From Blumeriella jaapii (Eukaryota; Ascomycota; Leotiomycetes; Helotiales; Drepanopezizaceae): a stretch of DNA of 64,000 nt. How positions within the stretch are numbered: the stretch's first letter is position 1; each line of letters starts with the position of its first letter. Positions 60,299 to 63,597 of the stretch are shown piece after piece. The notes under the pieces are model-generated. The model was not told where the DNA came from and made no database searches. It saw only the letters and a list, made by a program, of their open reading frames with translations. Made by a program: the position numbers and the translations under genes. The DNA is taken from the NCBI GenBank assembly GCA_009599575.1, contig VWND01000008.1, positions 930,001-994,000 of the forward strand. Direction: 5' to 3'.

Positions 60299-61426
60299 AT
60301 GCTCCCTCCCATAGAAGAGTCGGTTCTCCAAGCCAACCCCAAGTTCGCCGCCCTCCACACCGTGCTTGCCCAGCAGATCCTCAATCCAGACGGCTCGACA
60401 AAATCCCACCCCGCACAAAAAGCGCGAGATGGGGTCTCGGAGGTACTGATAGATGCTCGCGGACGTCCTCTCATGCTTCTACTGATGCTAATACAAGACC
60501 AGGCCTTGAACACGTCGCGCATCCGCAGCGCCAAATCCCAAATCCTCAAGTCTGCCTTGCGAAACCTGGACCTTTCCTCCCCCGACGCCTCAACCACGTC
60601 CACATCGAAGCCCATTCGACAATCGCAATCCCAATCGCAAGCAAAGCCACGCGCGAGCCTCCCTCCCGAGCTCCTCGAGCTGATCCTGCTCCTCTCCTCC
60701 TGCCTCTCATCTCCTCAGGCACTACCACACTCGCACTCCGCGCTCCTAGCAAGCACACCCCAATGGACCTCCCTACACACCCACCTCCCTCAAATCAGCG
60801 GCCTCCTCTCCACGCACCTCCAGACCCAAACCCTCGCCCTCTGCAAGATCCTCACGCCCAGCACGAACCCGTCCTTTCTGCACCGCGCCATCCCGAAACT
60901 GCTCCCCGCCGCCACGAGCCTACGAGACAGCAACGCCCACCAGCGGGCCGCGCTCGCACAGCGGCGCGCCGCGCTGGTGGGCAATGCCACGACGCTGCTG
61001 ACGCTGCACCACCTCGCCGCGAGCCTCGTGATTCGCATCCTCGAGCAGACGACGCATGGGGCGCTGGCACGCCACCTGCGGGCGCGGACGGAGTTTCTGG
61101 CGCTGAAGGCGCAGCAGGTCGCGTGCGAGGCGGCCGAGAAGCAGGCCAAGGGCGAGCGTATCGTGTATTCGGAGGAGGTGAGCGGTGCGCTCGAGAACTA
61201 CGTGAGAGGGCTGAGGGATGGGAGGGAGAGGGGGAGGGAACGGAAGCGGATGGCGGAGAGGACGCTGTGGGGTTATGGGGTTGGGCGCGGGGAGGGCGAG
61301 GGCGAGGGCGAGGGCGAGGACGGAGAGAAGGCGAGGGTGTTGAGGAGCGTGGCGAAGGCGTATGGAGAACTGCTTAGAGAGATTGAGGAGGTGGGGAGGG
61401 ATGTTCAGAGGTTGAAGGGCCGGTAG
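60299..61426 (+). CDS. conserved fungal hypothetical protein
   Basis: Exons 60299-60442 and 60503-61426 give 355 residues. The start MLPPIEESVLQANPKFAALH resembles a conserved fungal protein of unknown function known to me only by this N-terminus. The protein is helical, with a Ser/Gln linker (residues 75-100), a Leu-rich segment and a charged C-terminal coiled coil (ENYVRGLRDGRERGRERKR). A short Gly-Glu repeat lies at about 61294-61322. The 60-base intron has a GCTAAT branch point and is a multiple of three, so retention would not shift frame. An upstream in-frame ATG at 60101 exists, but the extra 66 residues look random. No function is proposed. Confidence 0.75.
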   Translation: MLPPIEESVLQANPKFAALHTVLAQQILNPDGSTKSHPAQKARDGVSEVLIDARGRPLMLLLMLIQDQALNTSRIRSAKSQILKSALRNLDLSSPDASTTSTSKPIRQSQSQSQAKPRASLPPELLELILLLSSCLSSPQALPHSHSALLASTPQWTSLHTHLPQISGLLSTHLQTQTLALCKILTPSTNPSFLHRAIPKLLPAATSLRDSNAHQRAALAQRRAALVGNATTLLTLHHLAASLVIRILEQTTHGALARHLRARTEFLALKAQQVACEAAEKQAKGERIVYSEEVSGALENYVRGLRDGRERGRERKRMAERTLWGYGVGRGEGEGEGEGEDGEKARVLRSVAKAYGELLREIEEVGRDVQRLKGR

Positions 61427-62052
61427 GGGTGTAGGCTACTGAAGGAATGAGCCAAAAGATGGGCCATGGCCTTACACCGATCGATATCTTGTCGTACATC
61501 GCACCGGCTGTCGGCACGTCATTTCGCGACTCGAAACTTTGATCAAGTTACGAGGACATTTGTCACATAGGCTTAAGGCAAAAAGACGCCGATTGAGCAT
61601 TGGGCGCCAACCGCAGCATAGTGCCGTAGTCAGTGAGAAGCTCCCATTACCTACCTAGGTATCTTACTTTTGGAAACTCCACTTGCATATCGCACTCAGC
61701 TAATTCCCGCTTCGGACATTCAAGACAAGTTCGTAGGCAAAGCAGGACGATAGGAACATTGTGTTCTGAGCGACAAGCTCGCCAAAGCCATTGCTCTGAC
61801 CAGCCAGCGACTGCTTTCACTAATAAATCACTAGTGATTAGACGATGTTTTCGTATTTCATTGATCGGAGCATCTATAGCCAAGAGAGATGATACATCAT
61901 GAATCAGATGCATTGTCGCTACCGCGACTGTTGGTACACTTGGAAAAATGTCTATAGGCATGGATGGCCCTTCCTGTGCTCGCCATCTTCTAATTGGGTC
62001 CATCCAAATCAACATCGGCAAACATCATCGTTTCACACATTGCTATATCCTA
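61427..62052. other. convergent 3' interval
   Basis: Between two gene ends. No coding signal seen. Confidence 0.5.
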
Positions 62053-63597
62053 TCAAGGCTTGACAGCGTGGATCGCAGCAGCAAGTCTCTTGACGTTCCC
62101 AGTTGTGATGCCAGCGACCGATATTCTGCCGTCCTTGGTCGCGTAGACCGAATGCTCCTTGGCCAACTTATCCATCTGCTCGGGGGTCAGTCCAGTGTAT
62201 GCGAACATGCCGATCTGGCTGGTGATGTGGCTCCAGTCGTGCTTTGATCCCAGCGCCTCGAGTTCCTTCTTCAGCAGCGCGCGCATCGTGATGATGCGGT
62301 CGGCCATTCCCTTGACTTCACCGAGCCATTGCTTGTTCAGAGACTGGTCGCTCAAGATCTCGGCGGCGACGCGAGCGCCGTGGACCGGCGGATTCGAGTA
62401 CATCGGTCTGACAAGGATCTTAATTTGCGAATCGACACGCTTAGCTTCTTCCGCAGAGGCGGTGACGATGGAGAAGGCGCCGACACGCTCGCCGTAGAGA
62501 CCCTATTCTTTCATTAGTATAAGATTTGGCTCACCAGAGCGGACGATCGTACCATGTTCTTGGCAAAAGATTGGGCAAGGCAGATGTTGTGGCCCTCAGC
62601 AACGAAGTGGCGGATTGGGAAAGCGTCCTTGTCGGTGTCTCCGGATGCGAAGCCTTGGTATGCCATATCGAAGAACGCGTAGTGGTTACCAGCCTTGACC
62701 GCATTGCTGATCTCCTTCCATTGCTCAATCGTAGGGTCGACACCAGTCGGGTTGTGTGCGCATGCGTGGAGCAAGAAGATGCTTCCCTCTGGCGCGCCCT
62801 TGATATCCGCAAGCATACCCTCGAAATCAAGACCAATGGTGTCCTTGTTGTAATATCTGTACTTCGCGAGTTCCAGTCCCGAGTCCTTGAAGACAGCTCC
62901 GTGGTTGGCCCATGATGGTGTTGGGATGTAGATCTTCTTTGCGCCCGGGTAGTGACGCTCCAGGAAAGCTCCACCGATTCTGAGGGCCCCGGTTCCTGAG
63001 ATGGATTGTGTGATGGCGAGACGGTTGAGAGCGCTAGAGCCGGCGCCGTACGCGAGGACAGCAGCGGCCTTGGTGAACTCGGGGACGCCGGTGATACCAG
63101 CGTACTCTTTGTTCAATTTTGCGGCGACGACTTTGTCTTCAGCGGTTCGTACGGATGGGAGGACGTATGGCTTCCCTTGGTCGTCACGGTATGCGCCAAC
63201 ACCTGCCAGCTGTGGTCAACACGAGTACTCGCATGCGCAAAAGACTTCCTTACCCAGATTGATCTTCTCCTGAAAGCTGTCGGCCTTGAAAGCCTCGGTG
63301 ATACCTGCGCCGCTGTTAGAGAAGCATTTGCCTTCCTTCTGTCCAGTTTGAGCATACCCAAGATGGCCTTTGTAGAGACTCTCGTTAGCAATTGGAGCTA
63401 TATAGAAGCCGTATGAGGTACTTACATCCTGTTATCAATTTAGCAGCAATTCAACGAGAATTCGCACAGAGTCGAGGACTTACAGGAGGGCCCATTGGCA
63501 CCTTGGCCCATGTAGAAGCTTGGCAGGCAGCAGCAGAGCGTCTGATGACGTTGCGAGAGACCGCCGTGCGGCTGGCGACGCGGACTGAGGACAGCAT
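62053..63597 (-). CDS. AAT1: mitochondrial aspartate aminotransferase
   Basis: Six exons: 63597-63484, 63428-63426, 63367-63358, 63304-63254, 63202-62553 and 62502-62053, giving 425 residues, the usual mitochondrial length. The N-terminus [20 protein letters not shown] is a mitochondrial presequence. The mature part starts near [14 protein letters not shown] and [16 protein letters not shown]. Motifs of the fold-type I PLP enzyme follow: [37 protein letters not shown], the lysine region [16 protein letters not shown] with the PLP-binding Lys, and [14 protein letters not shown]. It exchanges amino groups between aspartate and 2-oxoglutarate in the malate-aspartate shuttle. The single Asp in GPPDAIL comes from a 3-base exon flanked by consensus splice sites, followed by a 10-base exon. 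Without them the conserved Asp-Ala-Ile-Leu is lost. Confidence 0.95.

Follow-up and report, generated by a model that had tools for sequence, protein, structure and literature searches.

Very small exons have been described in plants, animals, and fungi. Arabidopsis APC11 contains a single-nucleotide exon, for which passages of PMC4674806 propose that intron definition acts together with recursive removal, one intron after another. According to the 2015 abstract of the same paper, the smallest exons known before this case were 6 nt long if constitutive and 3 nt long if alternative. Plant microexons of 1 nt are reported for both APC11 and VPS55 in the sections of PMC8831610 on such exons. In Drosophila, homothorax has a 3-bp micro-exon that is evolutionarily conserved (PMC7392893). 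The filamentous ascomycete Trichoderma has a glucose-dependent 20-nt microexon in Xlr2, and the relevant passages of this 2024 paper (PMC11121469) state that functional microexons had previously been undescribed in filamentous fungi and that fungal microexons had earlier been tested solely in Schizosaccharomyces pombe. One passage of PMC4194422 deals with a short 3'-terminal exon and holds nothing relevant here, and term searches within PMC13149111 (without the term 'fung'), PMC3898260, and PMC9801653 returned no relevant text. Among the papers listed in searches of one literature library, no title or abstract opening describes the aspartate aminotransferase exon analyzed here or any fungal 3-nt exon.

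The gene that contains this exon lies on the minus strand of the window, the 64-kb stretch of Blumeriella jaapii DNA that was analyzed (bases 930001 to 994000 of contig 8; the genome has 47.4 Mb in 91 contigs). It is a nuclear gene encoding mitochondrial aspartate aminotransferase (AspAT), a member of PF00155. The encoded protein matches this Pfam family with 303.3 bits against a curated cut-off of 19.7, and the six best matches in the PDB are AspATs, the top four of them named mitochondrial. In a protein search the twelve best matches are 84-89% identical, and the named ones include Stipitochalara, Botrytis, Acephala, and Calycina, which we take to be Leotiomycetes. The predicted gene has exons of 114, 3, 10, 51, 650, and 450 nt (stop counted) and encodes 425 amino acids. 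Its features are as follows, in window coordinates.

63484..63597, minus strand: exon 1, 114 nt, with the ATG, the presequence, and ...KVPMGPP, ending GGGCCCTCCT; the tblastn match of protein P0001 stops at GPP
63429..63483, minus strand: intron 1, 55 nt, GTAAGT...TAACAG
63426..63428, minus strand: exon 2, 3 nt, GAT (Asp39), placed by the sole chain in an exhaustive search and by homologues
63368..63425, minus strand: intron 2, 58 nt, GTAAGT...ACAAAG, with a branch-like CTAAC
63358..63367, minus strand: exon 3, 10 nt, GCCATCTTGG (Ala-Ile-Leu-G)
63305..63357, minus strand: intron 3, 53 nt, GTATGC...GCGCAG, with a branch-like CTAAC
63254..63304, minus strand: exon 4, 51 nt
63203..63253, minus strand: intron 4, 51 nt
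62553..63202, minus strand: exon 5, 650 nt, 90% identity to P0001
62503..62552, minus strand: intron 5, 50 nt
62053..62502, minus strand: exon 6, stop TGA included, 89% identity to P0001

The gene ends in tandem stops, TGA TAG, at 62050-62055, and farther downstream, at 61283-61337, there is an imperfect array of 9.5 copies of the hexamer GGGCGA.

An exhaustive enumeration of splicing chains leads to a single solution for the N-terminal region. Every GT-AG or GC-AG chain whose introns reach 20 nt or more was considered, and the conserved 22-residue N-terminal peptide was the required product. The earlier note on this DNA had proposed GAT at 63428-63426 as the only source it saw for the Asp between GPP and AILG, and one chain, the one containing this GAT, was obtained. 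The rest of the proposal also holds: introns of 55 and 58 nt flank GAT and a 10-nt exon follows, and the phases agree along the whole chain from 63597 to 62053, giving the 425-residue product. With AACAG before it and GTAAGT after it, GAT is an internal exon of no more than 15 nt with canonical AG and GT bounds. Three other open chains use alternative splice sites for intron 4 or intron 5, and they insert residues that are absent from 16 aligned relatives. Since the other three introns measure 53, 51, and 50 nt, sizes of 55 and 58 nt are typical for this gene, while a merged intron of 116 nt would be an outlier. Overall it appears, with a probability of about 93%, that a real 3-nt exon, included constitutively, supplies the codon of the conserved N-terminal Asp; the GT-AG introns on its two sides are short and ordinary, and the next exon has 10 nt.

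The exon signature rarely arises by chance. When the 116-nt block was shuffled 100,000 times with its dinucleotides preserved, AG-GAY-GT with at least 40 nt on both sides was seen 204 times, with a GTRDGY donor in addition 8 times, and 6 times when a loosely defined branch site was also required. The window has 1,651 overlapping GTRNG...AG segments between 100 and 130 nt long; with the real site left in, 14 of them contain AG-GAY-GT, and three contain it with a strong donor. The string AGGA[CT]GTAAGT occurs once on the two strands of the 64-kb window, at the GAT exon.

Introns 1 and 2 each have their own donor, acceptor, and branch-like site. For intron 1 the branch-like candidates are TTGAA, CTAAA, and TTGAT, and none of them is a perfect CTAAC. 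An acceptor and a donor separated by only 3 nt within a larger intervening stretch recall the nested introns of fungi described in PMC6616335, and the 116-nt block could be read as such a stwintron, or GAT as a recursive splice site that is present in an intermediate and finally removed. This is extremely unlikely, because the GTAAGT donor and the AACAG acceptor at GAT are uninterrupted, both introns are complete, and loss of GAT would remove a conserved residue. No internal intron splits a donor, branch site, or acceptor, so the block falls outside the definition of a stwintron.

The Asp is conserved well beyond the fungi. It is found in all 80 bacterial relatives examined, which are the best 80 of 114 relatives in genome contigs, have bacterial titles throughout, and served solely to gauge conservation of the Asp. 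One of the two peptide patterns behind this set, DAILGITE, includes the Asp, so the loci found with it carry the residue by construction, and at least 33 of the 80 local alignments start at the Asp itself. The 69 pattern stretches in viral contigs include no relative. All five PDB alignments shown have the residue, and the cytosolic AspAT paralogue of the same genome has it too, in a single uninterrupted frame encoding VPQAPEDPLFG. All 16 fungal proteins in alignment A1 have it, a count that is not independent since the set was chosen as Asp-bearing. A structure prediction of P0001 based on 16 sequences has pLDDT below 50 over residues 1-64 and is uninformative on the role of the Asp.

Loss of the Asp is confined to annotated gene models among the homologues surveyed. 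Three protein searches, one with an Asp-bearing query and two with Asp-less queries, were run against a database clustered at 90%, and the best 120 of 7991, 1582, and 1849 matches gave 257 different proteins. The two Asp-less queries enrich the sample in Asp-less models, and the Asp-bearing search is the fairer sample. By source label, 181 of the proteins are NCBI/UniRef entries and were treated as gene models, while the other 76 are labelled jgi, lgn, ena, or merc only; those with both kinds were entered as NCBI/UniRef, and the labels were typed by hand. Among the matches listed, 87 of the 181 models have the Asp, which in these models may come from a 3-nt exon or from a larger one; another 68 read GPPAILG, and the remaining 26 show other alterations. 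Of the 76 non-annotation proteins among the matches listed, 74 have the Asp, and the other two begin downstream. P0191 (GPPDGILG) was taken as altered in one tally and as Asp-bearing in the others, and P0251 (GPADAILG), assigned by script to the class 'other', was counted as Asp-bearing.

The search with the Asp-bearing query gives a similar picture. The matches listed for it include 85 models, of which 46 have the Asp, 15 lack exactly this residue, and 24 have other readings, and 35 non-annotation proteins, of which 33 have the Asp and two begin downstream. The site is thus abnormal in 39 of 85 models versus none of 33 non-annotation proteins (Fisher P 1.3e-7, ignoring relatedness and for the best 120 of a longer list), with P0029 and P0109, which begin downstream of the site, omitted from the test. 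The prediction that gene finders would produce a wrong N-terminal region is thereby borne out, with exact loss of the Asp in 15 of the 39 models.

Most of the short non-annotation contigs appear to be transcript or metatranscriptome assemblies, since contigs of 1.4-2 kb have little room for more than an open frame of about 425 codons, and they would therefore be free of introns. P0109, encoded on a 79-kb jgi contig, starts within what is intron sequence in our gene, as would be expected of a prokaryote-style caller, which supports the transcript reading of the short contigs. Only two contigs, those of P0100 and P0196, are shorter than the open reading frame plus 116 nt. Room for less than 267 nt, the sum of the five introns, is found on 17 non-annotation contigs, including some with partial proteins such as P0163. 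P0029, a protein of 384 residues on a 1424-nt contig, is 99.7% identical to P0007 and starts just before GITEAF; translation may begin with a TTG at the Leu of AILG, in a message that retains an upstream intron, or the contig may be truncated.

The same survey bears on the suggestion that an isoform without the Asp is made. If inclusion of GAT were regulated, as for a cassette exon, two kinds of message, one with it and one without, would encode two forms of the enzyme; skipping would preserve the frame, and regulated microexons are described elsewhere, in passages on Trichoderma Xlr2 (PMC11121469) and Drosophila hth (PMC7392893). However, among the matches listed none of the 74 non-annotation sequences that cover the site lacks the Asp, despite the Asp-less queries, and the residue is nearly invariant, in the bacterial relatives and the cytosolic paralogue as well. 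Rare skipped forms may be hidden by the 90% clustering and the best-120 lists. The suggested isoform thus finds no support, and regulated skipping is unlikely.

The GPPAILG models constrain where the Asp codon can lie. Joining CCN to GCC requires GT (or GC) immediately behind CCN and AG immediately ahead of GCC. The sequence CCN-GAY-GCC contains neither GT nor AG: a GAY adjoining CCN would make the intron open with GA, and a GAY adjoining GCC would make it close with AY. In a gene whose GT-AG model joins GPP to AILG, the Asp codon therefore either touches neither neighboring exon or is absent. This argument is drawn from protein models and presumes that they are GT-AG or GC-AG models on sound assemblies. 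For the relatives, shared exon boundaries are suggested by a protein signature, GPPAILG in 68 of the 181 models and GPP-D-V-R or GPP-D-V-S in three (P0034, P0039, and P0087), among the matches listed. The latter readings are expected if a gene finder entered the GAY exon and then read through its GTN donor.

Matched pairs of sequences suggest that the residue is lost in annotation. The Asp-less model P0076 (Erysiphe neolycopersici) is identical at 423 of 423 aligned residues to P0047, from a 1604-nt contig, the Asp being their sole difference, and P0131 (Parascedosporium putredinis), also Asp-less, agrees with P0105 at 408 of 408, although P0131 also lacks an 18-residue stretch elsewhere. For Asp-less P0147 (Sarocladium strictum) against P0085 and P0151 (Cytospora chrysosperma) against P0088, identity is 423/424 and 416/421, and the sole gap in each pair is one residue at the site. 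Two annotated Pseudogymnoascus models, P0035 without the Asp and P0021 with it, are 97.9% identical. The pairs with non-annotation sequences weigh against the reading in which the Asp is truly absent, with a single 116-nt intron joining GPP to AILG, and GAT and its splice sites are accidental. Such a structure preserves the frame and is what the 68 GPPAILG models have, but otherwise identical sequences carry the Asp, every bacterial relative examined keeps it, and accidental sites with a GTRDGY donor are as rare as the shuffles indicate. True absence is very unlikely. The preferred reading, a constitutive GAT exon, would account for the models if gene finders that disallow so small an exon join GPP directly to AILG and lose one residue.

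The distribution of GPPAILG models suggests that the 3-nt exon is old. One species with this signature was looked up per class, and ten Pezizomycotina classes are represented: Pezizomycetes, Arthoniomycetes, Coniocybomycetes, Sareomycetes, Lecanoromycetes, Xylobotryomycetes, Dothideomycetes, Leotiomycetes, Sordariomycetes, and Orbiliomycetes. Five of the species looked up are labelled MAG (Alyxoria, Chaenotheca, Sarea, Villophora, and Cirrosporium). Judged by names, no Eurotiomycetes are found among the 68 GPPAILG models in the matches listed, and the Asp is present in Ascosphaera apis. Some long contigs that have no gene-model label, among them that of P0238 (54 kb), also contain Asp-bearing open frames, which suggests that the flanking introns have been lost in some lineages. 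The arrangement would then date from early Pezizomycotina, with later loss of these introns in places; parallel intron gain is the alternative to an ancestral 3-nt exon. In the most far-reaching reading, a constitutive 3-nt exon has probably been kept in this gene since the Pezizomycotina, with Orbiliomycetes and Pezizomycetes among them, last shared an ancestor; it would require strictly sequential splicing, may be the smallest yet described in fungi, and is lost or garbled in nearly half of the models, 39 of 85, among the matches listed for the Asp-bearing query.

Annotated relatives also vary at the neighboring 10-nt exon (63358-63367). AILG is lost or replaced in P0006, P0014, P0041, P0045, P0064, and P0069, and likewise in the annotated models P0086, P0087, P0091, P0108, and P0249, so the 10-nt exon is probably another conserved one that annotation misses. 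P0031 (Lachnellula subtilissima) reads GPPKQDAILG at the site, which fits a misplaced acceptor together with either an Asp joined to AILG by loss of intron 2 or a predicted 9-nt exon.

The small size of the GAT exon should have consequences for splicing. Splicing factors bound at an acceptor and a donor 3 nt apart should clash, which makes sequential removal by intron definition the most likely route, as proposed for the APC11 exon (PMC4674806). Introns 1 and 2 would be removed one after the other, in either order, and the message would contain the exon constitutively even though gene finders often pass over it. The AspAT exon would thus be a natural, apparently constitutive substrate for studying how the spliceosome of short-intron fungi deals with an exon too small for simultaneous use of its splice sites. 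In many fungal protein sets, a central enzyme would lack one residue at a conserved position or be more severely altered there, and inspecting the GPP/AILG junction is a simple test for such annotation errors.

Microexons, including those of 3 nt and 1 nt, were already known, and the AspAT case is notable for its smallness combined with its probable age. It would provide a deeply conserved fungal example of a class that is known mainly from plants and animals in the papers cited. The exons of APC11 and VPS55 are, as the AspAT exon appears to be, extremely small, conserved, and absent from reference annotations, but they are found in plants and in other genes, measure 1 nt rather than 3 nt, and are supported by RNA evidence, whereas the AspAT exon is deduced from DNA and protein sequences. 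The homothorax micro-exon is likewise 3 bp long and is conserved, as the AspAT exon probably is, but it is alternatively spliced from a 48-bp exon and the isoforms have partly distinct roles, while no alternative form was found for AspAT among the sequences surveyed. Xlr2 is the counterpart from a filamentous ascomycete, and its microexon is missing from the JGI gene model; it is 20 nt long and glucose-dependent, in contrast to the 3-nt, apparently constitutive exon of a core metabolic enzyme. Fungal stwintrons (PMC6616335) resemble the AspAT block in having two adjacent intron units that would need consecutive splicing. In a stwintron, however, one intron breaks a splice element of the other, while in the AspAT gene three exonic bases part two complete introns.
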